Assembly (NCBI GenBank): GCA_913774665.1
Contig: CAJYHN010000007.1
Location: forward strand, 1-64,000
Direction: 5' to 3'
DNA: 64,000 nucleotides
From: an uncultured Microbacterium sp.
GTDB taxonomy: Bacteria > Actinomycetota > Actinomycetes > Actinomycetales > Microbacteriaceae
Shown: positions 1 to 13,567 of the stretch, one piece after another
Layout of the letters: the number at the start of each line of letters is the position of its first letter
Numbering within the stretch: position 1 is the first letter of the stretch
The notes under the pieces: generated by a model
Databases searched by the model: none
The model's input: only the letters and a program-made list of their open reading frames with translations
Told to the model about the DNA's origin: nothing
Made by a program: the position numbers and the translations under genes

Positions 1-583
1 TGCAGGAGTTGTGCGCCCGAGCCGGTGTTCCTCCTAGGGTCGGGCGGACGGGCGCTGCGCCACGTCGGGGCGGTGAGGCGTGCACAACTCCTGCAGATGG
101 GTGGGTTGTGGGCCCGGTGAGGGCTGGGTGTGCGTGATGTGCAGGAGTTGTGCGCCCGAGCCGTGGTTCCTGCGGTCTTTCCGGTTGAGCTGGGCGGCCG
201 GTCTGCTGTGTGACGCCACGTTGGGGCGGTGGGGTGAGCACAACTCCTGCAGATGGGTGGGTTGCGGGCCCGGTGAGGGCCGGGGGTGCGCGATGTGCAG
301 GAGTTGTGCGGCCGAGCCGTAGTTCCTGGTTGGAGCGGACGGCCGCTGCGTCACGTCGGGGCGGTGAGGCGTGCACAACTCCTGCAGATGGGTGGGTTGT
401 GCGCACGGCGAGGGCTGGGTGTGCGCGATGTGCAGGAGTTGTGGGCCCGAGCCGTAGTTCCGGCTGGGGCCGGGCGAACGGGCGCTGAGCCACGCAGGGG
501 CGGTGGGGCTTGCATGACTCCTGCAGATGGGCGGGTTGTGGGCCCGGCGAGGGTCTGCGGTGCGTGATGTGCAGGAGTTGCGC
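1..583. repeat. Array of 72-bp palindromic elements (4 complete, 1 cut)
   Basis: Four elements of exactly 72 bp lie at 82-153, 238-309, 373-444 and 512-583. Each begins with GCACAACTCCTGCA and ends with its reverse complement TGCAGGAGTTGTGC, with one or two changes in the last two copies. The right arm of a fifth element is at 1-14 and is cut by the window edge. The 58-bp interiors and the 63-84 bp linkers also resemble one another, so the whole unit is tandemly duplicated. No gene can be supported here. The short open frames reading through the repeats are products of the repetition. Confidence 0.9.
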
Positions 584-821
584 GCCCGAGCCGGCAGCTC
601 TCCGGCGGAGCCTCCGCCCGACGCGCCGATTCCGGACGCCGAGACCCCGGTGCGTCGAAATCCCCCGGAGGGGCCGTGCTCGATGCATCGGCCGTCCCTT
701 CCCGTGGCCCAACGCGGGACGTCCGCGGGCGGCGCGCCTCCCGGTCGGGTGGAGACGCCCCGGCCGGGGCGACGCTCCTGCTTACGCGGCCGGGCCGGGC
801 GCGGGGCCAGCACATGAAGAA
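584..821. other. Gene-free stretch between repeat array and terminator
   Basis: This GC-rich DNA lies between the last palindromic unit and the terminator of the DUF916 gene. Open frames exist on both strands, but their composition is unlike the proteins nearby and no ribosome binding site or family is recognisable. I see nothing else in it. Confidence 0.5.
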
Positions 822-849
822 CGCCCGCCGTGCGCGAGCACGGCGGGCG
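822..849 (-). terminator. Hairpin terminator of the DUF916 gene
   Basis: A perfect 12-bp stem (822-833 with 838-849, arm CGCCCGCCGTGC) has a 4-base loop. In minus-strand reading it is followed by TTCTTCATG. It sits 52 bases beyond the stop at 901. The same stem-plus-TTCTTC layout occurs at 30933-30962. Confidence 0.75.
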
Positions 850-900
850 AGGTCGATCGCTCGCGGCGCGGGGTGTCCCTCCCCACGCCGCGAGCGGGTC

Positions 901-2250
901 TCAGGGCGACCGGCGCGAGGCGCGGGTCGGGGCGGGGGAGAGAGCCTCGGGAGCTCCTTCGGTGTCGGATACGCCGCCGGCCGGCACCTGCTCGCGCTGG
1001 GCGGCCGCACCCGTCACGGCATCGGCCCCCGCGGCACCGGCCCCCGCGGCACCGGCCCCCGCGGCATCGGCCCCCGCGGCATCGGCCCCTACGGCATCGG
1101 CCCCTACGGCATCGGCCCCCGCGGCACCGGCGACAGCGCCATCCGCCCCTGCGGCATCCGCCCCCACGGCATCGGCCCCCGCGCCATCCGCCCCCGCGGC
1201 GTCCGCTCGCGCAGCGGCCACCGCGGCGGCGATCTCGCGAGCGTGTGCCGCTCGGCGGCGCCGCGAGGCGATGATGCGCCAGGCCACGAGCAGGGCGATC
1301 ACGGCGAGGATCGCGAGCGTCGTCCACGGCACGGCGGCCGTGGCGGCCGCGCCCTGCGACACGAGGGGGTCGAGGGTCGACGGCTCCGCGCCGGCCAGTG
1401 TGCGCGAGACGACCTGCGAGGTGGCGGTGACGTTGGCCGACAGCACCACGAGGGGGACGACCCCGGCGACCTCGACGGTGCGCTTCAGCGAGCTGCCGGG
1501 GAGCAGCTCGGGCGCATCGTCGGCCGCGGTCACCCGCGCCCAGCCGAAGGGACCGCCGAGGGCGACCTCGACGTTCGGGTCGAGGCGGGTATTGCCGGTA
1601 TTGGTGAGGGTGTAGCCCACGGTCGCGGATCCCGTCTCGGCGGGATTCGCGGTGCCATGGTAGTCGACGACGACGTCGCCGATCGCGAGCGAGGGGACGA
1701 GGTCGCCCTGCACGCGGAGGTGCACGCGCGAGCCCAGGCGACGTTCGGTGACGGTGCCGTTGTCGGCGGTGACGAGCATGGATGCCACGATGCCGGCCGC
1801 GTAATCGCCCGGGGCGGCGTCGGCGGGCACGGCGACGGTGAAGGGGACCTCGGCGCTCGCGCCGCTGTCGAGGGTGAGCTCGGGGGATGCGATCGAGACC
1901 CAGCTGCCGAGGTCGGTGGATTCCGCGCCCCCGGCGAGGATGTCGAGGGCTCCGTCATCGGTGAGGAAGCCGTCGGCGGCGTACACGCGCAGGGTGATCG
2001 GCTGGGGGCTGCGATTCGCGACGTACAGGGCGTCGCCGACCGTGCCGCCGGGCAGCAGGTCGTAGGCGTAGTTGGGCCGGTCGCGCCCTTGCGCGGTGTC
2101 GGCGGGTTTGACGCTCCACGTGACCGTGGTGTCGGGGGAGGGGGCGGCGGCCGCGGAGGCGGCGAGCGGGCTGGCGAGCAGCAGCGCGAGGCCGGTGAAA
2201 AACGACAGGAGCAGTCGGAGCGGATGGGGAGTGGTCTTCGCCTGGGACAT
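901..2250 (-). CDS. DUF916-type cell-surface protein (WxL partner) with pentapeptide tail
   Basis: The 449-residue protein starts at ATG 2250. A signal peptide (about residues 1-32, ending AASAA) is followed by a DUF916-type extracellular region (from TVTWSVKPA to about residue 260). A membrane segment near residue 300 (LAILAVIALLVAW) and a basic RRRR stop-transfer come next. The cytoplasmic tail is dominated by GADAA/GADAV pentapeptides. In lactobacilli, DUF916 proteins are the membrane-anchored partners of WxL wall proteins in Csc-type complexes. The gene immediately upstream (2325-3596) is WxL-like, so the pairing holds here. A hairpin separates the two genes, so co-transcription is possible but may be attenuated. 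The family assignment is from sequence pattern only. Confidence 0.75.
   Translation of the reverse strand: MSQAKTTPHPLRLLLSFFTGLALLLASPLAASAAAAPSPDTTVTWSVKPADTAQGRDRPNYAYDLLPGGTVGDALYVANRSPQPITLRVYAADGFLTDDGALDILAGGAESTDLGSWVSIASPELTLDSGASAEVPFTVAVPADAAPGDYAAGIVASMLVTADNGTVTERRLGSRVHLRVQGDLVPSLAIGDVVVDYHGTANPAETGSATVGYTLTNTGNTRLDPNVEVALGGPFGWARVTAADDAPELLPGSSLKRTVEVAGVVPLVVLSANVTATSQVVSRTLAGAEPSTLDPLVSQGAAATAAVPWTTLAILAVIALLVAWRIIASRRRRAAHAREIAAAVAAARADAAGADGAGADAVGADAAGADGAVAGAAGADAVGADAVGADAAGADAAGAGAAGAGAAGADAVTGAAAQREQVPAGGVSDTEGAPEALSPAPTRASRRSP
1018..1205. repeat. 15-bp coding tandem repeat (GADAx pentapeptides)
   Basis: Repeats of about 15 bp, GGCATCGGCCCCCGC and variants, run in frame on the minus strand and encode GADAA, GADAV and GAGAA units in the C-terminal tail of the DUF916 protein. 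The period is a multiple of three, so copy-number change would not break the frame. Confidence 0.85.
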
Positions 2251-2275
2251 GGGCGTGGCTTTCGTGTGGAAGGGA

Positions 2276-2318
2276 TCCCGTCGGGGCCGCGCTCTCGAGG
2301 GGCGCGACCCCGACGGGA
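2276..2318 (-). terminator. Hairpin between WxL-like and DUF916 genes
   Basis: The arms 2276-2292 and 2302-2318 pair over 17 positions with one mismatch around a 9-base loop. The hairpin lies directly after the stop of the WxL-like gene at 2325 and before the DUF916 start. There is no long T tract, so it may be a partial terminator or an mRNA-stabilising hairpin. Confidence 0.6.
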
Positions 2319-2324
2319 AGGGGA

Positions 2325-3596
2325 TCAGCTGAGGGCGGTCAGCGTCACGGTCGCGGTGTAGGTGCCGCGGGGGGTCTCGAGCGGGAGCTTGAGATCCAGG
2401 TCGGCACCCACGAGCGAGCTGCCCCGCTCGTGGCCGTCGTTCGCCTGCGCCAGGGTGCGGGCGACCGAGAGGCCCTGGCCGCTGTCGAAGCCCGAGGGCA
2501 CGGGAGCCCCGGCGACGGCACCGCCCTGCGTCTCGAGGACCTCGGGCGTCCAGCCGAGGTACTTGCTCGACACCTCCTGGCCGTCGGCGGCGAAGTTCGA
2601 CACCTGAGCGGTCAGCGACCATCCGGGGTTGCCGGCCCGGGTGTCCTGGACGCGGATCGGGACGATCTCGCCCGCCGCTGCGTAGTGATCGAGGTTCTCG
2701 GTCGCCACTCCGAGATCGACGAGTCGGGAGGTGCCCTCGATCGACCAGGTGAGCTCTCCCGAGCCCTGACCGGGAACGGTCACCGCGATCGACTGGTCAC
2801 CCGCGGGAGGGGCGGTCGGCGCCTCACCCGTGTAGTCGCCGGTGGTCGAGCCGGCGCGCACGCCCGCGCCGAACGCCGCCGCCGGGGTGTTCCCGTCGAG
2901 GGCGAGAGCGCCGTACACGGTCGTGTTCGCCACACGCAGGTTCGCGGTGTTCCCGGTGAGCGAGAGGCCCCCGCCGATCGAGTTGGCGAAGGCGTCGGAG
3001 CCGCCGTCGGCCGTCGCGCCGATGAGCACGTCGCGCGAGCTGCCGCTCACGGTGACGTCGCCCTTGACGACGGCGCCGGTCATCGACACGCCCCAGCCCG
3101 AGCCGTCGATCGACACGTCGGCACCGACCGACGTGCGCACGACGTCGACGTAGGTGGCCTGCTGCGTGAGCAGCGAGCCCGAGATCGCGCTGTCGACGAC
3201 CTCGACGTCGATGCCGCCGGCTTCCACCGAGCCCCCGACCCTCAGGTCGTTGACGTAGAGGAAGCCCACGGTGGTGTCGGCGGAATAGGCGCTGACGTCG
3301 CCGGCGACGCTCGTTCCGTCGAGCGAGACGCCGTACGCGTCGGTGGCGACGACATCACCCGTGACGGTGACCGAGGTGGCATCCAGCCATCCCCCGGCCT
3401 CGACGACGATGTCGCCCTCGACGGTCGCGCCGCCGAGGACGCAGTCCGCTCCTCCCGGGACGATGAGGTTGCCCGAGACGGTCTGGCTGCCCAGGTCGTC
3501 GGTGCACGTGAGGTCGGCCGCGTACGCGGGGACGGCAACCACGCTGCCCCCGATGACGAGAAGTCCGACGGTGGTCAGTTTCGTGATTCTGTTCAT
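2325..3596 (-). CDS. Secreted WxL-like surface protein with repetitive beta-rich N-terminus
   Basis: The 423-residue protein starts at ATG 3596, with GAGGAG about 5 bases upstream. A signal peptide ends at AYA (about residue 26). Residues 30-270 are repetitive, with short strands rich in G, V, D and T (VEGDIVVEAGG, VTGDVVATDAYG, VKGDVTVSGSS), as in a polymer-forming or right-handed beta-helix fold. The C-terminal 100 residues fit the WxL pattern: GWSL at about 325-328, then LGWTP, and a terminal GTYTATVTLTALS. WxL domains bind peptidoglycan non-covalently in Firmicutes. The gene is 17 bases downstream of the Tat-exported isomerase gene and precedes the DUF916 partner. Ligand unknown. Confidence 0.7.
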   Translation of the reverse strand: MNRITKLTTVGLLVIGGSVVAVPAYAADLTCTDDLGSQTVSGNLIVPGGADCVLGGATVEGDIVVEAGGWLDATSVTVTGDVVATDAYGVSLDGTSVAGDVSAYSADTTVGFLYVNDLRVGGSVEAGGIDVEVVDSAISGSLLTQQATYVDVVRTSVGADVSIDGSGWGVSMTGAVVKGDVTVSGSSRDVLIGATADGGSDAFANSIGGGLSLTGNTANLRVANTTVYGALALDGNTPAAAFGAGVRAGSTTGDYTGEAPTAPPAGDQSIAVTVPGQGSGELTWSIEGTSRLVDLGVATENLDHYAAAGEIVPIRVQDTRAGNPGWSLTAQVSNFAADGQEVSSKYLGWTPEVLETQGGAVAGAPVPSGFDSGQGLSVARTLAQANDGHERGSSLVGADLDLKLPLETPRGTYTATVTLTALS

Positions 3597-3613
3597 CAGT
3601 TTCTCCTCGTCGC

Positions 3614-4642
3614 TCAGCCGCGCAGGGCCGCGATGTTCTCGTAGCTGCGGTCGGCGTTCTCGAGCGAGTTGCCGGGGTTGACCGGCACCGTGGAGGCGTT
3701 GTCCTGTTCGAACATGCCGAAGCGCTGGCCGCGGTCGCGCAGCTGCGACAGGAACGCCGTGTAGTCGATGTTCCCGGCGCCGAACTCGACGATGTCGTAG
3801 CCGTTGGCGCTGTTCGGGTTGAGCTTGCCGTCCTTGAGGTGGAGGATCGGGAAGCGTCGGGGGTCGCGCGTGAGGTAGTCGATCGGCTCGAACCCGGGGT
3901 AGAGGAACTTGCCGACGTGCGCCCAGTAGACGTCCATCTCGAAGAACACCGTCTCGGGGTTGAGGTTCTCCCAGTACAGGTCGTACACGCGTTCGTTGGT
4001 GTCGGTGGTGAAGCCCCACTCCTGCGCGTGATTGTGCAGATAGAGCTTGATCCCGGCGGCCCGGCCCTTCTCGCCCATCTCATTCCACGTGCCGATGGCC
4101 TGCATCCACGGGTCCTTGGCGAGCGGCCCGCCGAAGCCTCCGACGATGGGTCCGCCCTGGCCCAGGTGCGGCATGCCCAGCACGTGGGCGATCTCGAGCT
4201 GCTGGTCGATGTTGGCCGGGGTGAGGTTGACGTGCGCGCCGGTCGCGCGCAGGCCGTTGTCGTCGAGCAACTGGCGGATCTGCTGCGGCGTGATGGCGCC
4301 GACGCCGCCCTGGGTATAGCCCGCGAACTCGATCTCGGAGTAACCGATACGCGCCAGTTCCTCGAACACCGCGCGGAATCCCAGCGAGCTGACCTTGTCG
4401 CGGACGGTGTAGAGCTGGATGCCGATGCGGTTGACGGGGACGAGACGCTTCCCGGCGCTGACCGGGGGAGCGGCGGCCGCGGCGCGGGCGCCGAAGCCGG
4501 TGGATGCCGAGGCGGCGGCGGGCAGAGCGGCGGCGCCGATGCCGACGGCGACGGATGACGCCGCCAGGGCCTTGAGCAGCGTGCGCCGGCTCATGGGCCG
4601 ATCCGGCACCGTGGGGTGCGCGTGGTCGTGGTGGTGACTCAT
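3614..4642 (-). CDS. Tat-exported sugar phosphate isomerase/epimerase-like protein
   Basis: The 342-residue protein has an AP-endonuclease-2-like TIM barrel, the fold of sugar isomerases/epimerases such as IolE and of keto-sugar enzymes. The twin-arginine signal SRRTLLKALAAS starts at about residue 18, so it is predicted to be exported folded. Before it is a His-rich stretch (MSHHHDHAHP). AAGGAGA sits about 6 bases before ATG 4642, so this extension appears to be translated. Likely metal-site residues are in SEIEFAGY, HVNLTP, LHNHAQEWGF, EMDVYW and LHLKDGKL. Exported members of this fold occur beside DUF1080 3-keto-glycoside hydrolases in other bacteria, and such a protein is encoded at 13568-16915. 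The substrate is inferred, not shown. Confidence 0.8.
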   Translation of the reverse strand: MSHHHDHAHPTVPDRPMSRRTLLKALAASSVAVGIGAAALPAAASASTGFGARAAAAAPPVSAGKRLVPVNRIGIQLYTVRDKVSSLGFRAVFEELARIGYSEIEFAGYTQGGVGAITPQQIRQLLDDNGLRATGAHVNLTPANIDQQLEIAHVLGMPHLGQGGPIVGGFGGPLAKDPWMQAIGTWNEMGEKGRAAGIKLYLHNHAQEWGFTTDTNERVYDLYWENLNPETVFFEMDVYWAHVGKFLYPGFEPIDYLTRDPRRFPILHLKDGKLNPNSANGYDIVEFGAGNIDYTAFLSQLRDRGQRFGMFEQDNASTVPVNPGNSLENADRSYENIAALRG

Positions 4643-4693
4643 GACTCTCCTTCGAGGTAGGTCCGCCCCGGGACCGGGGACGACCGTGAGGGT

Positions 4694-4722
4694 GGTGGGG
4701 GCCGCGGTGCGCGACCCCCACC
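4694..4722 (-). terminator. Hairpin after the sugar dehydrogenase gene
   Basis: This hairpin lies within the gap between the isomerase and dehydrogenase genes, just upstream (minus-strand sense) of the isomerase gene and right after the dehydrogenase stop. The 8-bp arms are GGTGGGGG (4694-4701) and CCCCCACC (4715-4722). It could attenuate read-through from the dehydrogenase into the isomerase and WxL genes. Confidence 0.55.
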
Positions 4723-4728
4723 GGGGTG

Positions 4729-7700
4729 TTACTTCTTGACGGTCAGGTTCGCGCTGCCGCTGCTCTTCGCGATCCCGGTCGAACCGGTGTACGACGCCTG
4801 CACCTGGTAGGCGCCCTCCGCGCTGAGCTTGGGCAGGGTCACCTGGACGGTGCCGTCGGCGCCGAGCGTGCCGGTGAGGGTGGTGACGACCGCGTTGTTG
4901 CGACGGATGGTCACCGTGGCGTCGCCGGTCGGGACGATGCCCGTCGACGAGGCCACCTGGACCGTGGCGGTGGCCGCCACGGCGGGCTTAACCGGCGTCG
5001 GCGAGACGGCGACCGAGGTCGTCGACTTCGCCTGCGAGACCGTGAGGCGACCGATGCCGGCCGACCCCTTGAAGGTCTGGTCGGCTCCGTAGGTGGCCCG
5101 CAGGGTGTGCGTGCCGACCGGGAGGTCCGCCGGGAGGGCGACCACGGCGTTGCCGTCGGCGTCCAGGGTCGCGCGACCGAGCTCGGTGTCGCCGACCGTG
5201 AGCACGACCTCGCCCGTGGGGGCACCGCCTTCTCCGCGCACCGACACCGTCACGTCGCCCGGGGCGCCGTAGGTGACCCGCGGGGAGCCGAGCGAGACGA
5301 GCGTGCGGGTGTCGACGGTCGGCTCGTTGGGAGCGTCGAGGTCGATCGTGAACGACACCGAACCGAGCTCCGACACATTTCCACCGGTGTCGGTGGCGCG
5401 GTAGCGGATGTCGTACGCGCCGTCCTGATCGAACGTCACCCCGTACTGCTGGTTCGCCGCGAGGTTCACCCAGGTCGCGCCGTTGTCGCGCGAGTATTGG
5501 ACGCTCGCGAGCGTGCCGTTGTCGGCGGCCTGCACCGAGAAGCGGACCGGCTCGTTGAACACGCCGCCGACACCCGTCGGGGTGGCGGGGGTCAGCGTGT
5601 GGGCGACGGTGGGGGGTGTGACGTCTCCGACGCCGTCGCCGACCATGGTCAGCGCGTCGACGGCCAGCTCGTCGGCCGAGGTGACGTAGAGCGCTCCGGT
5701 GCCCTCGGGGGCCTCGAAGGCGATCTCGACGTCCTGCCAGCCCGCGCCCCCGGGGATGGCCGCCGTGGCGAAGGGCTCGGCGTCGGCCGCTCCCCAGCGC
5801 AGCTGGACCTCGCCCGCGCCGCTGGCGCGGACCACGGCCCCGTCGATCCCGGCGAAGTTCACCGGGTCGAAGGCGAGGTAGTCGCCCGATCCCAGGCCGC
5901 GGATGGCGTTGCCGCCCGAGGCGTCGGTGTCGGCGTAGGTGGTGACACCCTCGCGACGGATCGCGTGCTCGGCCTGCTGCAGCTTCGGGTTCAGGCGAAC
6001 GGTCGCCTCACCCGTGGCCGCCGGCAGCCCGTTGGCGCCGGCATCGGTGTAGGTGACCACGACCGCGCCGTAGAGCAGGGCGCCGGGGCCGTGCTCGGGC
6101 GAGTTCGGGTCGGTGCGGAAGACCCCGGTGCAGCCCGTGCCCGAGACCTCGGGGTGGGCGTGCTCGTCGTGGCCGAGACCGTAGGTCCAGCTCACGCGCG
6201 AGCATTCCGTGGCGTCGCCGTCCTCGGCATCGGTCGTGGTGACCTGGAACGGGATCGCCTGACCCCAGTCGAAGAACGCGCCGTTGCCCGGGAAGGCGAC
6301 GGTGACCTCGGGGGCCTGGTTGCCCACCGAGATGGTGCGCGAGGTGACGCCGAAGCGTCCACCCGGGTCGGACACGCGGAGGCGGGCGCTGTAGGTGCCC
6401 AGCTCCGTGTACGTGTACGAGGCGGTGACGCCCGTGGCGTCGAAGGCGCCGTCACCGTCGAAGTCCCACTCGTAGGTGAGGGCGTCTCCGTCGGGGTCGA
6501 CCGAGCCGGAGGCGTCGAACTGCACCGTCAGGGGAGCCTGCGACGACGAGGTCGGCGTCGCGGTGAAGCTCGCCTGGGGCGACTTGTTGCCGGCGACGTA
6601 GTCGATGCGGTAGAGGCCGGCATCCGGGTTCGCGCGGAAGAAGCCGTCACCGTAGTCGAGCACGTACATCGAGCCGTCGGGCCCGATCTCCATGTCCATG
6701 GGGTTGTCGTGCGGCGGCTGGCCGAGCGTGCTCAGCGCGGCGTTCGGCAGGAAGTCCTCGATCGCGCTGACCTCGAAGGTGTCCCAGTCGAGCGTGAACG
6801 CGGCGATGTAGTCCTGCGAGAACTCGCCCATGAACGCCTTGCGGTCCCAGTGCTGGGGCAGCTTCGTGGGGGAGGGGTTCGTCTCGTCGTAGTGGTAGAC
6901 GGGACCGCCCATGGGACCCTGGCCGTTGCCGGCGCCGAAGTTCACCAGCTCGTCCCACGGCTGGTCGCCGGGATTGTCGCCGTACCAGAGGGTGGCGGGC
7001 TGAGCGGGGGGAAGATCGACGAGGCCGGTGTTCCACCGGGACTCGTTCTTGAGGTTCTGCGGGTCGAAGAACGCACCCGGAGTGGCGGTGGCGAAGTCCC
7101 AGTCGTTGTAGGCCTGGTTGTCGGCGTGGACGTAGGGCCACCCGGCGTTCTGGGGCTCGTCGAGGCTGATCGCGTTCCACTCGACCAGACCCATGGGTCC
7201 GCGACCCGCGGTCTCGGCGACGGCCTTCGTCGCGTCGGGGCCGTAGTCGCCCCACGACAGTGAGTTGGTCTCGATGTCGACCTCGATGCGGAACGGATTG
7301 CGCACACCCATCACGAAGATCTCGGGGCGGGTGAGCTCGGTCCCGGGCGCGAAGAGGTTGCCCTCGGGGATCGTGTACGAGCCGTCGTCCTCGACGTGGA
7401 TGCGCAGGATCTTTCCGCGCAGGTCGTTGGTGTTGCCGGCTCCGCGGCGCGAGTCGAAGCCCGGGTTGTAGCCGGGTGCATCGTTGTTCGGTGCGAAGCC
7501 GTTGGCTCCCGGAGTGGATGCCGGAGTGTTGTCGCCCGTGCTCAGGTAGAGGTTGCCGTCACCGTCGAACCCGATGTCGGCGCCGACGTGGCAGCACTGC
7601 CCGCGCTGGACCTCGACGTCGAGGACGACCTGCTCGCTCGCGAGGTCGAGGGAGTCGCCGTTCCACTGGAAGCGGGCGAGGCGGTTCACGCCGACCCACT

Positions 7701-8262
7701 GGTCCCAGTAGGACTCGTCGGCTCCCGCGGGGAGGGTGTTGGGCGAGTTGCCCGCCGGGGTGTCGGCCACACCGTCACCGTCGGCGTCGCGCGGGGAGTA
7801 CACGAGGTACACCCAGTTGTTCTCGGCGAAGTCCGGGTCGAGGGCGACCGTCTGCAGGCCGTCCTCCGAGTTGGCGTAGACGTCGAGGCTGTTGGTGACG
7901 CGGGTGACTCCCGTCGCGGGATCGGTCAGGCGCACGTCGCCGTTGCGGGCGGTGTGCAGGACGCGCTTGTCGGGGAGGACGGCGAGGTCGATGGGCTCGC
8001 CCACGTCCTTCGTGAGCAGCACGCGCTCGTAGTTGCTCCAGTCGAGGGCGCCGCCGTCTTCGCCGGTGTCGCCGGGGTCGGGGGTGCCGGGGTCGGTGGG
8101 GTCTCCGTGGTCGCCCCCGGGGTCCGTGGTGCCGTGGTCGTGCCCGTCGTGCGCGAAGGCGGGGACGGGGGCGGCGGCGATGGCGCCCAGACCCAGTGCG
8201 GTGGCCGCGAGGACCGCCGTCAACCGGGACCGGACGATCGGATGCCGAGAAGTAGAGTTCAT
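4729..8262 (-). CDS. Secreted PQQ-type sugar dehydrogenase with PKD, CBM6-like and Ig-like domains
   Basis: The 1177-residue protein starts at ATG 8262, with AGGAG 9 bases upstream. A Sec-type signal peptide ends at AFA (about residue 38). The mature N-terminus is His-rich (HDGHDHG). Residues about 75-560 form a glucose/sorbosone dehydrogenase six-bladed propeller, with GLQTVALDPDF, CCHVGADIGFDGDGNLY, RGKILRIHV, GVRNPFRI and the closing DNPMDMEIGPDG. A PKD domain follows (YEWDFDGDG, about 590-660), then a CBM6-like module (LQQAEHAIRR to DALTMVG, about 765-900). The last 300 residues are Ig-like repeats. This family oxidises aldose sugars with PQQ. No PQQ synthesis genes are visible, so the cofactor would come from elsewhere. 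It is probably the first gene of a group with the isomerase and WxL/DUF916 genes. Confidence 0.85.
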   Translation of the reverse strand: MNSTSRHPIVRSRLTAVLAATALGLGAIAAAPVPAFAHDGHDHGTTDPGGDHGDPTDPGTPDPGDTGEDGGALDWSNYERVLLTKDVGEPIDLAVLPDKRVLHTARNGDVRLTDPATGVTRVTNSLDVYANSEDGLQTVALDPDFAENNWVYLVYSPRDADGDGVADTPAGNSPNTLPAGADESYWDQWVGVNRLARFQWNGDSLDLASEQVVLDVEVQRGQCCHVGADIGFDGDGNLYLSTGDNTPASTPGANGFAPNNDAPGYNPGFDSRRGAGNTNDLRGKILRIHVEDDGSYTIPEGNLFAPGTELTRPEIFVMGVRNPFRIEVDIETNSLSWGDYGPDATKAVAETAGRGPMGLVEWNAISLDEPQNAGWPYVHADNQAYNDWDFATATPGAFFDPQNLKNESRWNTGLVDLPPAQPATLWYGDNPGDQPWDELVNFGAGNGQGPMGGPVYHYDETNPSPTKLPQHWDRKAFMGEFSQDYIAAFTLDWDTFEVSAIEDFLPNAALSTLGQPPHDNPMDMEIGPDGSMYVLDYGDGFFRANPDAGLYRIDYVAGNKSPQASFTATPTSSSQAPLTVQFDASGSVDPDGDALTYEWDFDGDGAFDATGVTASYTYTELGTYSARLRVSDPGGRFGVTSRTISVGNQAPEVTVAFPGNGAFFDWGQAIPFQVTTTDAEDGDATECSRVSWTYGLGHDEHAHPEVSGTGCTGVFRTDPNSPEHGPGALLYGAVVVTYTDAGANGLPAATGEATVRLNPKLQQAEHAIRREGVTTYADTDASGGNAIRGLGSGDYLAFDPVNFAGIDGAVVRASGAGEVQLRWGAADAEPFATAAIPGGAGWQDVEIAFEAPEGTGALYVTSADELAVDALTMVGDGVGDVTPPTVAHTLTPATPTGVGGVFNEPVRFSVQAADNGTLASVQYSRDNGATWVNLAANQQYGVTFDQDGAYDIRYRATDTGGNVSELGSVSFTIDLDAPNEPTVDTRTLVSLGSPRVTYGAPGDVTVSVRGEGGAPTGEVVLTVGDTELGRATLDADGNAVVALPADLPVGTHTLRATYGADQTFKGSAGIGRLTVSQAKSTTSVAVSPTPVKPAVAATATVQVASSTGIVPTGDATVTIRRNNAVVTTLTGTLGADGTVQVTLPKLSAEGAYQVQASYTGSTGIAKSSGSANLTVKK

Positions 8263-8501
8263 GGTGAAACAGCTCCTGTGAATGCGTTCGAGTTGTTTTC
8301 ACCGGGTCGCCACACAGTCGGTCTCAACGACTGATCGTGGCGGCCCGGGCTCTTCGTGCGGTGGCGGTCGGCCACGCGCGGTTTCTGCTCCTTACTCTTC
8401 GTCGAGTGGGAGGGGTCGCCGATCACCGCCTCTCGGGGCGGTTCGTGTGGCGAGCCTCGGGGGGATGAGGTGTCCGGTTGCAAAGGACTTCGCTCGTCGT
8501 C

Positions 8502-8530
8502 ATCCTGACCGATGTTTTTCCATAGGTCAA
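8502..8530 (-). promoter_or_regulatory. Candidate promoter of the sugar dehydrogenase group
   Basis: In minus-strand reading there is TTGACC (8530-8525), a 17-base spacer and CAGGAT (8507-8502). The -35 is good and the -10 moderate. It lies about 240 bases upstream of the dehydrogenase start, in the AT-rich part of the gap. Confidence 0.45.
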
Positions 8531-8579
8531 TCAAAAGTTGCGTAATGACCACACAACAAAAGAATGCGTAACGCGAACC

Positions 8580-8609
8580 TTGTGGTTTTCTTTCGCCGCG
8601 GGCTAGCAT
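8580..8609 (+). promoter_or_regulatory. Candidate tatA promoter
   Basis: TTGTGG (8580-8585), an 18-base spacer and TAGCAT (8604-8609) lie about 70 bases before the tatA start. Confidence 0.45.
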
Positions 8610-8679
8610 CGCCGCACGGTGCGTCTCGCGCCGATCCCCCACCCGTCGGCGAAGGCGCCGACACGGCCGAGGAGGCCCC

Positions 8680-8919
8680 ATGCTCCATGGACTGACCGGA
8701 TGGCACCTGCTGATCGTCCTGGCGGTGATCGTCCTCCTCTTCGGAGCCGCGAAGCTGCCGGCTCTGGCTCAGAGCGTGGGGAGATCGGCTCGCCTGTTCA
8801 AGGGCGAGTGGAAGGCGATGAAGGACGACGACGCGGCGCCCTCCGCCGAATCGGCCGTGCCTACGGCTCCCGAAGTCCGTGCCTCGGCGGTCGTCGCCGA
8901 CCCGCCCCCGACCCGCTGA
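8680..8919 (+). CDS. tatA: Sec-independent translocase subunit TatA
   Basis: The 79-residue protein has the TatA layout: a short N-terminal membrane helix (WHLLIVLAVIVLLFGAAKLPAL, residues 8-29) with the FGAAKLP hinge, an amphipathic helix (AQSVGRSARLFKGEWKAMKDD) and a disordered acidic tail. It forms the pore part of the twin-arginine translocase, which exports folded proteins. GGAGG lies 5 bases before ATG 8680. A tatB-like gene follows after 53 bases. No tatC is present in the window. The adjacent minus-strand group includes a clear Tat substrate (3614-4642), so this pair may serve it, though it could equally be the genome's main TatA. Confidence 0.9.
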   Translation: MLHGLTGWHLLIVLAVIVLLFGAAKLPALAQSVGRSARLFKGEWKAMKDDDAAPSAESAVPTAPEVRASAVVADPPPTR

Positions 8920-8972
8920 TCCGCCGCGTTCCGATGGTCGGCCCCCGCCACCCCCGAGCGGGGGAGTAGCCC

Positions 8973-9374
8973 GTGGTCTTCGGCCTCACCATCGAGAAGC
9001 TGATCCTCATCGGCGTCATCGCGGCGCTCATCATCGGTCCGGAGCGGCTTCCCGCCGCGGCGGAGTCCCTGCGGCGTGCCCTCATCCGCGCCCGGGGCTT
9101 CGCGAAAACCGCCCAGGAGCGGATGCGTGACGAGCTCGGCGCCGAGGTGACCGACGTGGACTGGCAGCGACTCGACCCCCGCCAGTACGATCCGCGCCGC
9201 ATCATCCGAGAGGCTCTGCTCGCGGATCCGGAGCCGGCCATCGCGCCGCGCACCGCTCCGGCGGACGTCGACGACCCCACCGCCGCCGATCTTCAGGCGG
9301 GTCCCGATGACCCCTCCGCCACCCGCGCCGACACCGACCGCAACGCCGACAGCACACGCCGTACGGCCGCGTAG
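8973..9374 (+). CDS. tatB: Sec-independent translocase subunit TatB
   Basis: The 133-residue protein starts at GTG 8973, with GGGGAG upstream. Its N-terminal helix LTIEKLILIGVIAALIIGPERLP contains the GPERLP hinge typical of TatB and TatA. An amphipathic helix (AESLRRALIRARGFAKTAQERM) and a charged tail with LDPRQYDPRRIIREAL follow, as in actinobacterial TatB. The helix and the long tail fit TatB better than TatA. The last 82 bases overlap the 3' end of the convergent LysR gene. Confidence 0.8.
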   Translation: MVFGLTIEKLILIGVIAALIIGPERLPAAAESLRRALIRARGFAKTAQERMRDELGAEVTDVDWQRLDPRQYDPRRIIREALLADPEPAIAPRTAPADVDDPTAADLQAGPDDPSATRADTDRNADSTRRTAA

Positions 9375-10210
9375 GCCAGGGCGTCGGGGCGGGCCAGCGC
9401 GTCCACGTGACGCACCAGGGCGAGATCGGCGAGGGGGCGGAGCACGAGCCCGTCGACGGCGAGCGGGGTCGTCGTGGTCCGGGGCATGACGGCGACCGCC
9501 GCGCCCGCGCGGACGATCTCGGCCGTGATTGAGAACTCGTTGATGCGGTGGGCGACGTCGAGACGGCGTCCGACGTGCGCCGACAGGTGGTCGAGGACCC
9601 CGGCGAGGGGGAACCCGGCGTGCACCGACACCCATCTCTCACCGACGAGGTCGGCTGCGCGCAGCTCTGAGCGTCGAGCGAGCGGGTGGTCGGCGGGGAG
9701 TGCGATGTCGAGGGGCTCCTCGAGCAGCGGCACCGTCACCACGCGGTCCGCGGGCCACGGCTCGTCGTGGGCGAGGCGGTGGGCGATCACGAGGTCGTGG
9801 TCGGCGGTCAGCCCGGGAAAGTCGCGGTGCGCGACGTCGGCGTCGGCGAGGTGCAGGGGCGGAGAGCCGTCGAGTTCGCGCAGGAGGGGCCCGAAGAGCG
9901 CGAGGGCGGCGCTGTGGAAGGCCGAGACGCGCACCGGGCGATCGCTCGCGTCGAGAAAGGCGCCGACGGCCTCGCGCGCACGCACGAGGGCCTCGTCGAC
10001 CCGCGTTCCCGCTGCGGCGAGGGCTTCGCCCGCCGGGGTGAGCGCGAGGGTTCGCCCGCGACGCCGGGTGAGGGGAACGGGGACGTGGGCCTGCAGGGCG
10101 GCGAGCTGTTGCGAGATCGCGGAGGCCGACACGTGCTGCGCCGCCGCGACGGCGGCCACGCTCCCCCGGTCGCGGAGTTCGCGCAGCACGCGCAGGTGAG
10201 CCAGATCCAT
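9293..10210 (-). CDS. LysR-family transcriptional regulator
   Basis: The 305-residue protein starts at ATG 10210; a TTG three codons upstream is possible. The N-terminal winged helix-turn-helix (LAHLRVLRELRDRGSVAAVAAAQHVSASAISQQLAALQ) is of LysR type, and residues 90-300 form the substrate-binding-like effector domain. The gene diverges from the EamA permease gene with a 72-base gap. LysR regulators commonly control the divergent gene, so the permease is the likely target. Its 3' end overlaps tatB by 82 bases tail to tail. The ligand is unknown. Confidence 0.85.
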   Translation of the reverse strand: MDLAHLRVLRELRDRGSVAAVAAAQHVSASAISQQLAALQAHVPVPLTRRRGRTLALTPAGEALAAAGTRVDEALVRAREAVGAFLDASDRPVRVSAFHSAALALFGPLLRELDGSPPLHLADADVAHRDFPGLTADHDLVIAHRLAHDEPWPADRVVTVPLLEEPLDIALPADHPLARRSELRAADLVGERWVSVHAGFPLAGVLDHLSAHVGRRLDVAHRINEFSITAEIVRAGAAVAVMPRTTTTPLAVDGLVLRPLADLALVRHVDALARPDALAYAAVRRVLSALRSVSARVAEGSSGPA

Positions 10211-10282: not shown

Positions 10283-11260
10283 GTGACCCGCCGCGTTCCC
10301 GAGATCCTCGTCGACGTCCTCCTCATCGCCGTCGCGGCGGTGTGGGGAGCGAGCTTCCTTGCCGCGAAAGGCTTGGTCGCCGAGACGGGGGTCGCTTCAG
10401 GCGTGGCCCTGCGCTTCGTCGTCGCGGCGGGCGCCCTCGGCATCCTGTGTCTCCTTCGTCGGGAGCGGATGCCGCGCGGCCGCGGTCTCGTGATCGCCAT
10501 GCTCCTCGGCTGCTCGCAGGCGGCGGTGATCGGGCTCGAGACCGCGGGCGTGCACGTGACCTCGGCGACGAACGCGGGCCTGCTCATCAGTCTGGCCCTG
10601 GTCTTCACCCCGGTGCTCGAGAGCGTCGCGGCGCGCTCGTGGCTCCCGCGTTCGTCCTTCATCGCGGCTGCGGCTGCGCTCGCGGGAGTCGCCCTGCTGG
10701 TCTCGGGCGGGGGCCTCCGAACCCCCAACCCCGGTGATGCACTCGTCGTCGCGGCGGCGGTCGTCCGCGCCGTACATGTCACCGCGAGCGGGCACCTCAC
10801 CCGTGGGCGAGAGGACAGCGCCCTCGCGGTCGTGTTCGTGCAGCTCGTCGTCTGCGCCCTCGCCTCGACCGCCGTGGCCGGGGCCGATCTCCCGCCCGCG
10901 GTGGCGGGGCTCTCGGCAGCCGGCTGGGTGGACGTGATCTTCCTCGGCCTGCTGTGCTCGGTGTTCGCCTTCGTGGTTCAGCTCTGGGCGGTGCGGCGCA
11001 CCTCGGCGACCCGCGCGAGCATCCTGATGGGCACGGAGCCGGTCTGGGCCCTCGCCGTGGGTGTGGCGATCGGAGGCGAAGCCCTCGGTCTTCCCGGACT
11101 CGCCGGTGCCGTGCTCATCGTCGCCGCGTCGTACGCGGGACAGGCGATCGAGCGTCGGCACCGCCGCTCGCGCGCGGAGGCGAGCGGCGACGCCGACGGT
11201 GACGCGGTCAGCTCCGGTCGGAGGTCGGTCGCCGCCACCGGCCCCAGGCCGTCGCCGTGA
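10283..11260 (+). CDS. EamA/DMT-family permease
   Basis: The 325-residue integral membrane protein has about ten hydrophobic helices and the two-EamA-repeat layout (ILVDVLLIAVAAVWGASFLAAKGL at the start; VDVIFLGLLCSVFAFVVQLWAV in the second half). The family exports metabolites such as amino acids. I chose GTG 10283, preceded by a GGGGGA stretch. An in-frame TTG at 10247 would add 12 residues, but its sequence is unlike a transporter N-terminus. The C-terminal 35 residues are hydrophilic and overlap the mini LPXTG gene tail to tail. Divergent LysR control is likely. Confidence 0.85.
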   Translation: MTRRVPEILVDVLLIAVAAVWGASFLAAKGLVAETGVASGVALRFVVAAGALGILCLLRRERMPRGRGLVIAMLLGCSQAAVIGLETAGVHVTSATNAGLLISLALVFTPVLESVAARSWLPRSSFIAAAAALAGVALLVSGGGLRTPNPGDALVVAAAVVRAVHVTASGHLTRGREDSALAVVFVQLVVCALASTAVAGADLPPAVAGLSAAGWVDVIFLGLLCSVFAFVVQLWAVRRTSATRASILMGTEPVWALAVGVAIGGEALGLPGLAGAVLIVAASYAGQAIERRHRRSRAEASGDADGDAVSSGRRSVAATGPRPSP

Positions 11261-11468
11261 GCCCCGCCGCCACCAACGCGACGGCGAGGAGGACCGAGGC
11301 GATCTCGCCTCCGGTGACCGGCAGCCCGCCCGCGGGGGATCCGGGGCCGGCGCCGGGCGGCGGCGAGCAGTCGACGGTGCAGGTGGCGGTCGGGAGGGGA
11401 GTGATCTCGACGGTGACGCCCACGCCGTCGTCGGCGACGGCCGTGGGGACGAAGAGGATGTCGCTCAT
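11208..11468 (-). CDS. Small LPXTG-anchored protein (CscD-like)
   Basis: The 86-residue protein has a complete sortase signal: LPVTGGE, a membrane helix (IASVLLAVALVAAGLTATAW) and the positive tail GRWRRPTSDRS. The N-terminal 45 residues are short and include a Cys pair (TATCTVDC) and a Pro/Gly-rich linker. No clear signal peptide is visible. The ATG at 11468 overlaps the stop of the DUF916 gene (ATGA), so the two are translationally coupled. Mini LPXTG proteins of this kind accompany DUF916 and WxL proteins in the Csc clusters of lactobacilli. Confidence 0.7.
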   Translation of the reverse strand: MSDILFVPTAVADDGVGVTVEITPLPTATCTVDCSPPPGAGPGSPAGGLPVTGGEIASVLLAVALVAAGLTATAWGRWRRPTSDRS

Positions 11469-12487
11469 GAGACCTCCACCGCCTCACGCCGGCCCTCTTC
11501 GCGAGCGCGGGCGACGAGGTCGTCGAGGCGCTGACGGGAACGCCGACGACCCGACGCGACGGCCGCGACGATGAGGGCGACGCCGACCGCGGCGGCGAGG
11601 TGCACCCACGGAACCGCCCACACCGTCACGCTGCGCGTCACGGGCGCCGCGGCGAGCGTCGAGTCGGGCACCGCGGCATCCACCGTCACGTCCTTCGTCA
11701 GCACGAACAGCGGCCAGGCGGGCTGGGGCTCGGAGCGCACGTCCCGGGATTCTCCGGGCAGCAGCACTCCGCGCTCCGTCGTGCTCGCCTCGGCCGCGTC
11801 GCTCACGGCGAGGGCGGTGTTCCCGGTGTTCTCCACCGTGTAGGCGTAGGCGATCGACCCCGGCGCGAAGAGGTTCCACGACGGCGTGTATTCCGCGCGG
11901 ACCTCGCCGACGCCCACCGACGGGGCGAGCTGGCCCGTCACGCGGGTCGATACGCGGAAGCCGACGCGACTGTCGACACCCACCCTCGTCCCGTCCGCTC
12001 CCGCGGAGGTGGACCGGACGGATGCCGAGACCCCGGCCGCGTGATCGCCGGGGGTGGCGTTCGGCGGCACGGCGATCTCGAACGACACGACCCGCGTCTC
12101 GTTGGGCGCGAGCGTGACCGTCGGTTCGACCGTGATCCACGTGCCGGCGTCGGTCGAGGCGCGGTCGGCGGGGAGCATCGTGAAGCGCCCGGTGTCGGTG
12201 TAGTAGCCGTCCGCGGCGCTCAGGGCGAAGGTCGCCTCGCGCTCGCTGAAGTTCTTCACGGCGAGGTGCTCGGTGACGCGTTGACCCGGGTCGAGTTCGA
12301 CCTGCATCACGCGGCGACCGTCCGGCCCCGCGGCCGAGGCCGGGGTGACCGACCACGTGACCGCGGAGTCGGCCGCATCGTCGGCCAGGACGGGCGGGGC
12401 CCACGCGAGGGCGATCGCGGCCACGAAGACACCCGCCATGCCGGCGGATGCTCCGTGCGCGAGCGACACCCTCATCTCGGTGCTCAC
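11465..12487 (-). CDS. DUF916-type cell-surface protein (CscA-like)
   Basis: The 340-residue protein starts at GTG 12487, overlapping the upstream stop as GTGA. A signal peptide is followed by a DUF916-type ectodomain (SAVTWSVTPAS, TEHLAVKNFS, DAGTWITVEP, VSFEIAVPPNATPGDHAAGV). Near residue 300 is a membrane helix (VHLAAAVGVALIVAAVA), followed by a basic, charged cytoplasmic tail (RRRSRQRLDDLVARAREEGRREA). It parallels the protein at 901-2250 but lacks the pentapeptide tail. It is the central gene of a tight three-gene operon with a WxL-like and an LPXTG partner, which supports a wall-associated complex. Confidence 0.75.
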   Translation of the reverse strand: MSTEMRVSLAHGASAGMAGVFVAAIALAWAPPVLADDAADSAVTWSVTPASAAGPDGRRVMQVELDPGQRVTEHLAVKNFSEREATFALSAADGYYTDTGRFTMLPADRASTDAGTWITVEPTVTLAPNETRVVSFEIAVPPNATPGDHAAGVSASVRSTSAGADGTRVGVDSRVGFRVSTRVTGQLAPSVGVGEVRAEYTPSWNLFAPGSIAYAYTVENTGNTALAVSDAAEASTTERGVLLPGESRDVRSEPQPAWPLFVLTKDVTVDAAVPDSTLAAAPVTRSVTVWAVPWVHLAAAVGVALIVAAVASGRRRSRQRLDDLVARAREEGRREAVEVS

Positions 12488-13104
12488 CCCTCGAGCAGGG
12501 TCAGGGTGATGGTGGCCGAGTACGCCCCGGGTGCCACGGTGGCCGGCGTCTTCAAGAGCAGGCCGGCGGTGGCGGAGTACGAACCGCCGGCGGCATCCGC
12601 TGCGCTGTCGACGTTGGCGAGGAGCTCGGCGTCGACGAAGCCACCCGTGCCGGGGTCGACGTCGTCTCCGGGGGCGACCACCTGCGACCCGCCTGCGGGG
12701 TTGCCCGAGACGATGTCGGGGTACCAGCCGAAGCTGTCCGCCGACGAGATCGCGGGCTGGCCGGCGCTGCCGGTGAAGTCGGTGATCGCTCCCATGACGT
12801 ACCAGAACGATTCCGGGTCGACGTTCTCGGCGAGACGGGTGTCGGTGACGGTGACCGTGGGCAGGGTGCCCGCGAAGGTGCGGTCGGTGCCGGACGCCTC
12901 GCCTTCGGTCAGCGTGGTCGCGTCGTCCGCGACAGTGAGGGCGAGGACGCCGGGCTCCGCCGCGGGGGCGATCTCGACCTGCACGTCGATGCTGTCCTCG
13001 TCGGCGGCGAAGGCGCTGCCGCCGCCCGCGGCGGCGAGGATGCCGACCCCGAGGGCGGCGACTCCGATGCGGGCCGACAGGCCGCGACGGGAGGTGAAGG
13101 ACAT
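12484..13104 (-). CDS. Secreted WxL-like protein (CscB/C-like)
   Basis: The 206-residue protein starts at ATG 13104, with GGAG 6 bases upstream. A signal peptide ends at AFA (about residue 33). The mature part resembles the C-terminal domain of the protein at 2325-3596: WYVMGAITDF at about 101-110 replaces the WxL motif, then SFGWYPDI, and the terminal strand APGAYSATITLTLLEG. The first motif is W-x-V rather than W-x-L, so it is a divergent member. It is the first gene of the operon with the DUF916 and mini LPXTG genes. Confidence 0.65.
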   Translation of the reverse strand: MSFTSRRGLSARIGVAALGVGILAAAGGGSAFAADEDSIDVQVEIAPAAEPGVLALTVADDATTLTEGEASGTDRTFAGTLPTVTVTDTRLAENVDPESFWYVMGAITDFTGSAGQPAISSADSFGWYPDIVSGNPAGGSQVVAPGDDVDPGTGGFVDAELLANVDSAADAAGGSYSATAGLLLKTPATVAPGAYSATITLTLLEG

Positions 13105-13567
13105 GAGTGCTCCGTTCTTCCACCGGGGGTCGGTGGAGTCGTCGGCGGTCGCCGGCGGGTGGTCGGGACGACCGGCGAGGCGCCGATCGGCGAACGAGGG
13201 ATGCCGTCGCTCAGGCGGGCGCGGTGGACTCGGGGGAGCCTCGTGGCGGCGCTGTCACGGGTCGGTTCTGCGGGTTCGTTGCGACAGTAGTGCGGCTTCG
13301 GTGAGTCGTCAAGCAAAAGATGACTGATCTTCGATCTACCGCAGCTCAGGCCATTTTCCGCCCTCTACCTCGGATGTTTGGTGGCATCTGCGCGGGTGGG
13401 GATGTTCAGGAGCGACTCGGACTCCCCATTTTCAGCAGTTCTTAACGCAAATTAGTCAGGTTTTGTAGACGTATCGACAAAAGACTCCTACAGTGACCAC
13501 GGTCGAGGGCGACCTGTGCGATCCGGGTGGTCGACGCCGCCCCCGCCGCTGATCCGAAGGAGCAATG
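13105..13567. other. Divergent promoter region (WxL operon / DUF1080 protein)
   Basis: A gene-free region of 463 bp. The minus-strand side has a good promoter (separate entry) and a leader of about 170 nt. The plus-strand side is AT-rich from about 13435 to 13500 and contains a TACAGT -10-like box at about 13490, but no convincing -35 at standard spacing. I see no clear operator. Confidence 0.6.
13284..13312 (-). promoter_or_regulatory. Promoter of the WxL/DUF916/LPXTG operon
   Basis: In minus-strand reading there is TTGACG (13312-13307), a 17-base spacer and TACTGT (13289-13284). This is one of the best sigma-70-type matches in the window. Transcription would start near 13277. Confidence 0.6.

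Follow-up and report, generated by a model that had tools for sequence, protein, structure and literature searches.

WxL proteins come mostly from the Firmicutes, which hold more than 91% of 938 WxL sequences (PMC9772566), and the gene clusters that pair them with DUF916 proteins (the CscA–D, or WxL–WxLIP, systems; PMC1534035, PMC10599100) are suspected of a role in carbohydrate use (PMC1534035). Here we describe a set of four genes from an uncultured Microbacterium sp. (GCA_913774665.1; genome 3.58 Mb) in which a divergent pair of this type stands in series with two exported enzymes of putative sugar-acting families. The set lies near the start of contig C7, of which the first 64,000 nucleotides were analyzed (the window), and the closest named relatives of the host, as judged by one of the four proteins, are Microbacterium testaceum strains (95–96% identity). 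A literature search returned no title or abstract opening on WxL proteins of Actinobacteria, which is not proof of absence, and no paper was found that joins a pyrroloquinoline quinone (PQQ)-dependent sugar dehydrogenase with a PKD domain, ThuA, and xylose isomerase-like proteins.

The four genes are all on the minus strand, at the coordinates and in the order given by a first-pass annotation made from the letters of the sequence alone, and are separated by gaps of 86, 17, and 74 bp. The first (4729–8262; 1177 residues) encodes an exported beta-propeller protein of the GSDH family with PKD, CBM6, and immunoglobulin-like (Ig-like; Big_3_5/Big_13) modules in its tail, and the second (3614–4642; 342 residues) a xylose isomerase-like TIM barrel (PF01261) with a leader of the twin-arginine translocation (Tat) type. 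The third (2325–3596; 423 residues) encodes a predicted beta-helix (residues ~30–260) followed by a C-terminal WxL-like domain (~265–423), and the fourth (901–2250; 449 residues) a DUF916/WxLIP-like protein with a signal peptide, two Ig-like domains, a long helix, and a tail rich in Ala, Gly, and Asp. Starts at 3596 and 2250 were adopted for the last two, as the longest open reading frames listed begin too far upstream; signal peptides were assessed by eye. We consider the chances about even that the products of these genes process glycosides outside the cell and that a clamp of the WxL/WxLIP type keeps the enzymes at the wall, and the wall tether is better supported than any specific chemistry.

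Comparison with the Firmicutes systems shows likenesses: in the DUF916 protein a pair of Ig-like domains precedes a probable membrane helix toward the C-terminus, the WxL-like protein joins a variable N-terminal domain to a C-terminal WxL-like domain, and a carbohydrate role is suspected in both. There are also differences. The host is an actinobacterium of high G+C content; the set contains one WxL protein, with neither a small WxL protein nor a mini LPXTG gene seen within 901–8262, and the next WxL-like gene (12484–13104) is more than four genes away; the second Trp-x-Leu is absent; the second Ig-like domain matches NPCBM_assoc rather than DUF3324; and the pair is in series with the GSDH and Tat-type TIM enzymes. 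A Csc cluster as published comprises cscA, cscB, cscC, and cscD, and only cscA- and cscC-like genes are found here, such that a complete Csc cluster can be rejected for the four-gene set on gene content.

The arrangement is conserved among relatives. The TIM protein occurs in 8 of 199 genomes of the family and 18 of 198 of the genus, the host's own included (E up to 1e-20), and we compared the neighborhoods in 5 of the 7 other family genomes and 16 of the 17 other genus genomes. All four genes are present in order on one strand in 14 of these 21, counting one (L033) in which a contig end cuts the GSDH gene; in two (L015 and L039) short contigs truncate the neighborhood, and five distant TIM proteins (35–40% identity over BLAST segments) have no WxL or DUF916 match nearby, three of them having a GSDH gene. 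A scan of public genomes, covering the best 80 of 475 TIM relatives and thus biased to close ones, overlaps with these neighborhoods, so that the two counts are not independent. In 41 of the 80 public loci there is a WxL-like domain; DUF916 is next in 34 of the 41, including all 34 in which at least 2.6 kb follow, and GSDH precedes TIM in 37, the other four being on contigs that start no more than 1,030 nt before the TIM match. The remaining 39 loci lack WxL and none has DUF916, although three have no downstream room in which to tell. The order, whose conservation the first-pass annotation had named as a check, is therefore kept in relatives, among them many actinobacteria of soil and plants, and extends beyond the Microbacteriaceae; the linkage in 34 of 34 and 37 of 37 loci, and in other genera, rules out chance neighbors and bears out the claim that a Csc/WxL-type pair lies in series with exported sugar enzymes.

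WxL carriers were found in Microbacterium, Agromyces, Rathayibacter, Compostimonas, Cellulosimicrobium, Oerskovia, Cellulomonas, Georgenia, and Oceanitalea, together with two metagenome bins and one apparently misnamed Sphaerisporangium record. The TIM protein of the latter (Sphaerisporangium cinnabarinum, L058) is identical to that of Cellulosimicrobium funkei (L059), and contamination or a wrong name is probable. In a quick maximum-likelihood tree of TIM the carriers form one set (44 rows; SH-aLRT 98), and the WxL state changes twice; we read this as a single gain plus loss of the domain in M. halophytorum (L075), with the proviso that the TIM tree alone cannot separate gain from loss. The set is also carried by M. 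testaceum StLB037 (L045), a laboratory strain. One locus (L037 in genome G308) has the TIM and WxL genes tandemly duplicated as a pair between GSDH and DUF916.

Several lines of evidence connect the C-terminal domain of the third protein with the WxL family. The first W-x-L motif and its preceding Asp-x-Arg are kept (DTRAGNPGWSL), and the Pfam WxL model (PF13731) matches 9 of 13 orthologues at E up to 0.1. A hidden Markov model (HMM) built from orthologues of the set only matches proteins that score above the Pfam cut-off of 25 bits, namely those of L145 (E 1.3e-25; PF13731 46.9 bits), L126:4844–7138 (E 6.9e-20; 31.8 bits), and L127 (E 2.6e-11; 28.0 bits), with E-values that refer to a database of 22 fetched loci; the window domain is thus related to accepted WxL domains. 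Related proteins, even the ones that exceed the cut-off, likewise lack a C-terminal Trp in the tails inspected, and a W-x-[ILV] pair near residues 284 and 326 is conserved in 13 of 13 orthologues and is distinct from the canonical pair. We use the name WxL-like for this divergent domain with its first motif kept. Among 20 WxL regions fetched, the WxL-like HMM finds the domain in 16 (not in L129, L135, L138, or L140) and a DUF916 HMM matches 19 (not L145). More widely in the genus, a same-strand DUF916 match lies no more than 2 kb downstream of at least 33 of 48 Pfam WxL matches, a count made with 44 listed DUF916 matches that were selected by eye; the 15 without a paired DUF916 include loci of the present set in G204 and G254, where DUF916 is present. 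In 4 of 10 WxL-like proteins scanned, the domain is fused to a purple acid phosphatase beside DUF916; in this genus, WxL domains carry enzymes. These phosphatase fusions, each followed by DUF916, are found in the host's own genome (contig C12 near 317807–319500; L020) and in L133, L139, and L141.

The DUF916 protein is related to WxLIP at the level of its fold. The AlphaFold2 model (mean predicted local distance difference test score, pLDDT, 75.3) shows a pair of Ig-like domains and a helix. Its top three Foldseek matches are chains of Enterococcus faecium WxLIP (9i1y_A, 9i1y_B, and 9i25_C), with E-values from 1.3e-13 for the best, 9i1y, to 3.5e-12, the next fold following at 6e-9; 9i25 is WxLIP solved with a long WxL. 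The model thus supports describing the protein as WxLIP-like, and its long helix, read by eye, is probably transmembrane; by analogy with Enterococcus it would bind both WxL and peptidoglycan. NPCBM_assoc is above its cut-off in the window protein and is found in 16 of 17 DUF916 members, among which DUF3324 had no match at E up to 0.1. Three DUF916 paralogues in the genome exceed the PF06030 cut-off. The Ala/Gly/Asp repeat tail that follows the helix (901–1240) varies greatly in length and sequence among relatives.

The predicted beta-helix of the WxL-like protein (pLDDT ~90) is not confined to WxL loci: 11 of the 39 that lack the domain have it. In nine loci, from Streptomyces, Nocardiopsis, and related genera, a small protein of its own carries it in the vicinity of TIM and GSDH, and in two loci from Nakamurella it forms the front part of the GSDH polypeptide, which ends in three SLH domains (74.7 and 100.9 bits). 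These matches outside the WxL loci have E-values of 1e-25 to 1e-39 against the HMM of the set (database, the fetched loci); repetitive beta-helices may match one another loosely, and the kinship across lineages is argued from position and a common N-terminal stretch that contains Cys. Because the beta-helix is found alongside or fused to GSDH elsewhere, it belongs with GSDH, and WxL/DUF916 and SLH look like alternative ways of holding it at the surface. The actinobacterial GSDH/TIM pairs (Streptomyces, Jiangella, Amycolatopsis, and Nakamurella) thus share with the window related GSDH and TIM proteins and, in some, a beta-helix protein, and differ in that no WxL or DUF916 was found with them and that in Nakamurella the SLH domains are on the GSDH polypeptide itself.

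These comparisons suggest how the set could work. The WxL-like domain would grip peptidoglycan, with the WxLIP-like protein as its clamp on the pattern of Enterococcus, and the beta-helix, because it is fused to GSDH in Nakamurella, may be a scaffold that retains GSDH, perhaps through the GSDH Ig tail. GSDH would bind a glycoside and oxidize it; the TIM enzyme, crossing the membrane in folded form with its metal bound, would cleave or hydrate the oxidized (3-keto) sugar in the manner of PF01261 enzymes of the LgdB1/LgdB2 type; and the freed sugar would then be imported. The WxL clamp, on this view a wall anchor of the Micrococcales, would in this lineage fill the role that SLH domains have in Nakamurella, whose SLH anchor on the same enzyme makes a wall-held set, as first suggested, the most economical reading. 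A machine in the sense of a physical complex, and plant glycosides as its substrate, both from the first-pass annotation, are unsupported.

A number of observations weigh against such a wall-held enzyme set. With PF13731 the window WxL-like protein scores 18.3 bits, below the cut-off of 25; its C-terminal Trp-x-Leu is absent, with TLTALS instead, and by the canonical test of two Trp-x-Leu motifs it does not qualify. The DUF916 protein likewise scores 19.8 bits with PF06030 (cut-off 27.3), and a WxL structure is absent among the 50 Foldseek matches listed (of 637) for the WxL-like model. GSDH and TIM are widespread without WxL, with GSDH in 30 of the 39 loci that lack it, and the M. halophytorum locus (L075) is inside the WxL clade without the domain, so the anchor is dispensable. 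The Ig tail, absent from GSDH in three non-WxL loci of the GSDH alignment, is matched by its HMM at 45–111 bits in other non-WxL loci outside the clade and is therefore no hallmark of the WxL form. Strong hairpins, which are possible terminators, occupy two of the three gaps between the genes. Lastly, no PqqE above cut-off was found in the genome (best 52.5 against 381.35 bits). The first-pass assignment of the pair as WxL and DUF916 accordingly falls short of the Pfam cut-offs but stands on the WxLIP fold match and on HMM kinship to accepted WxL proteins, and the structure predictions it called for were run as single chains, the DUF916 model matching WxLIP and the WxL-like model matching no WxL structure among those listed.

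Pfam GSDH (PF07995) matches the propeller protein at 102.5 bits (cut-off 25) and is the only match of this family in the genome; PKD_4, CBM_6, and Big_3_5 are all above their cut-offs, and no sorting signal was seen at the C-terminus. His225, Arg321-Asn322, and Gly341-Pro342 are invariant among 12 orthologues and align with the corresponding blocks of soluble GSDH structures (2g8s, 2ism, 3a9g, and 7cdy), which we take to be PQQ/Ca positions. The window protein differs from these structures in its longer propeller, in its PKD, CBM6, and Ig modules, and in that no PQQ synthesis gene was found with it; relatives in the PDB match in short blocks only, and no alignment was obtained for the C-terminal Arg/Lys ligands, such that ligand conservation is only partly checkable. 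The PQQ cofactor of the earlier description is unproven; in the search for PqqE none of 14 control genomes exceeded the cut-off either, so that this search has no positive control. If PqqE is indeed lacking, PQQ would be scavenged or the cofactor would differ; uptake of PQQ from other bacteria is possible.

AP_endonuc_2 (PF01261) matches the TIM protein at 53.7 bits (cut-off 31.1) and the leader, SRRTLLKALAA, is of the Tat type, although the Pfam TAT_signal match is sub-threshold (15.9 against 22.7); the earlier call of a Tat-exported, isomerase-like protein is therefore upheld as to its leader and family and falls short at the TAT_signal cut-off. E105, H203, H205, D237, H268, K270, D271, and E312 are invariant in 15 sequences, and we infer that these acidic and His positions serve metal binding or catalysis. 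Among PDB sequences, 8tcd, 8tcs, and 8tct come closest to it (E 1e-23 to 2.7e-19); we take these to be 3-keto-glycoside lyases, an assignment that our literature search did not confirm; the structures are said to come from Nasseri et al. 2024. In the levoglucosan pathway, LgdB1 and LgdB2 catalyze beta-elimination of 3-keto-levoglucosan and glucal hydration, the hydration aided by Mn (PMC7676230), and both have been assigned to PF01261 (PMC10066097); a periplasmic 3'-ketolactose hydrolase role has been proposed for a DUF1080 protein (PMC9007349). The window shares with the Lgd enzymes and the 3-keto-disaccharide hydrolases the families PF01261 and PF06439, a PF06439 protein being encoded nearby (see below), and differs from the Lgd pathway, with its NAD-dependent Gfo/Idh/MocA oxidoreductases, in the Tat-type leader of the TIM protein and in having GSDH as the sole oxidase candidate of the set. 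A 3-keto route for the gene set is an inference supported by these family relationships. We know of no PF07995 enzymes that make 3-keto sugars, and casting GSDH as the 3-oxidase is a guess.

The competing explanation that survives best concerns this step: GSDH could be a propeller with another cofactor or none, acting as a binding platform, and TIM an ordinary sugar isomerase or epimerase, or an enzyme whose 3-keto substrate comes from a different oxidase. We rate this as a serious contender that falls short of even chances. It accommodates the failure to find PqqE and the short blocks in which GSDH matches its PDB relatives, and a source of 3-keto sugars is implied by the secreted 3-keto-disaccharide hydrolase encoded close by, PF07995 enzymes not being known to act as one. 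Set against it are the candidate catalytic His, Arg-Asn, and Gly-Pro positions, invariant in the 12 orthologues and aligned with GSDH structures, and the prospect that PQQ comes from other bacteria.

The spacing of the genes bears on whether they are expressed as a unit. GC-rich hairpins without an adjoining U-run are predicted on the minus strand in the GSDH–TIM gap (4694–4722) and the WxL–DUF916 gap (2276–2318), and a terminator-like hairpin follows the DUF916 gene (822–849). This last is the strongest (12 pairs) of four terminator-like sites in 700–9400, compared with 1.8 in shuffled sequences, and no sigma-70 consensus promoter was found in this region (0.1 expected). Across the related loci, uninterrupted stems of at least 10 bp lie no more than 60 nt past the gene end after GSDH in 34 of 37 and after WxL in 36 of 40; after the TIM gene there is none in 41 loci, and for DUF916 the figure is 14 of 34. 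Fold z-scores below -2 follow the same genes in 36 of 37, 33 of 40, 10 of 41, and 17 of 34. In the window and six other loci inspected the hairpins differ in sequence and mostly have no adjoining U-run; in L035, five T residues stand a few bases beyond the WxL–DUF916 hairpin. Because of the hairpins after GSDH and WxL, a single simple transcript is not assured, and one shared transcript is not supported. The hairpins may be terminators, which would weaken the case for an operon, or they may be elements of processing or stability by which ratios are set, a role described for cellulosome operons (PMC4423207, PMC8219983, PMC10311766).

A more ambitious form of the wall-held reading can be put together from these parts. 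In the Micrococcales, a divergent WxL/WxLIP pair would be a general wall dock for exported enzymes, and would here hold an extracytoplasmic 3-keto pathway of glycan cleavage. The keto sugar would be made by a GSDH-type propeller rather than by an NAD-dependent cytosolic enzyme and split by a Tat-exported TIM lyase, with the hairpins setting the ratio of scaffold to enzyme as in cellulosome operons. As a whole we think this improbable, although worth stating.

A second alternative concerns the tether. The beta-helix–WxL protein and DUF916 could form an adhesin for plant or other surfaces, with GSDH and TIM diffusing freely and the genes neighbors by virtue of a common niche. Large WxL proteins and WxLIP of the Firmicutes have been linked to host binding (PMC10599100), the hairpins set the GSDH and DUF916 genes apart from TIM–WxL, and the beta-helix weakly resembles phage proteins in its fold: two of the Foldseek matches listed for the WxL-like model have E-values of 0.001 or less, and the matches include phage tail fibers (1.5e-4) and tailspikes (3.5e-3 and weaker), which we read only as a shared beta-helix fold. 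A PDB sequence search with the WxL alignment gave no match at E up to 1. A beta-helix of this kind, however, also stands with TIM and GSDH in some WxL-free lineages and in Nakamurella is part of the GSDH polypeptide. Its ties are thus to the enzyme and not to the WxL system, and the adhesin is rather unlikely.

To the right of the four genes is a second Csc-like set, about 3 kb from the first. It comprises a small WxL-like protein (12484–13104, minus strand; 206 residues; no Pfam match) whose orthologues score 29–41 bits with the WxL-like HMM, a DUF916 protein (11465–12475, minus strand; 336 residues) above the PF06030 cut-off at 34.2 bits, and a mini LPVTG protein (11208–11468, minus strand; 86 residues; no Pfam match) whose gene overlaps the DUF916 stop and for which a clear signal peptide from the first start codon was not seen. 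With A-, B-, and D-like csc genes, and with the small WxL-like and mini LPXTG-type proteins known from the Firmicutes systems, it is nearer to a Csc cluster than is the four-gene set. Divergent from it is a gene for a secreted protein with PA14, CBM35/6, and 3-keto-disaccharide hydrolase (DUF1080) domains (13565–16915, plus strand), which starts 5.3 kb beyond the GSDH start and is the only PF06439 protein above cut-off in the genome (130.2 bits); 13 of the 80 public loci have a relative that matches across this domain within 10 kb of TIM. Because the second set adjoins a sugar-acting protein, the link to sugars is stronger than it would be from one locus. Parts of the second set (11208–16915) accompany the first in L045, L048, L056, L057, and L060.

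Between the two sets, and divergent from the first, are a tatA-like gene (8680–8919, plus strand; PF02416, 50.9 bits) and a tatB-like gene (8973–9374, plus strand; 26.2 bits). Such genes are upstream in 14 of the 32 WxL loci with at least 6.5 kb of upstream sequence. They diverge from the set in most loci of Microbacterium and also in Compostimonas, and were not found in the M. gubbeenense, Cellulomonadaceae, or Rathayibacter loci. The window has no tatC match; genome-wide, TatC has two matches and TatA/B five, two of the five being those described here. Dedicated Tat machinery was set aside on these grounds, the arrangement being a habit of the lineage rather than part of the core. Farther to the right are galactokinase and galactose-1-phosphate uridylyltransferase genes (25051–27386; read by eye) and a GH30_2 protein with ricin-type lectin domains together with sugar-binding proteins (48982–52875), possibly forming a region for galactan use. 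That the set remodels the host's own wall polysaccharide rather than external glycans is very unlikely: everything is wall-held in our preferred reading and some other WxL/DUF916 sets of the genus accompany phosphatases, but the CBM6 and CBM35 modules, the GH30, sugar-binding, and galactose-use genes of the same window, and a distribution as patchy as 18 of 198 genus genomes, the host's own included, argue otherwise.

The extreme left end of the window (1–593) contains four direct repeats of about 163 nt, with 68–86% identity to the first, in which lie inverted copies of CACAACTCCTGCA...TGCAGGAGTTGTG. This motif pair is present at nine distinct places in the genome (three on C7, two on C8, three on C10, and one on C12), the search giving 13 strand matches and a reversed-pattern control none.

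A conserved actinobacterial set in which a WxL protein stands in series with enzymes gives the WxL system a testable enzymatic cargo, and the sister lineages, with an SLH anchor or with none found, provide a natural comparison between anchor types. Should the 3-keto step prove right, these bacteria would have an alternative form of glycan cleavage outside the Gram-positive membrane, with a possible non-NAD oxidase.

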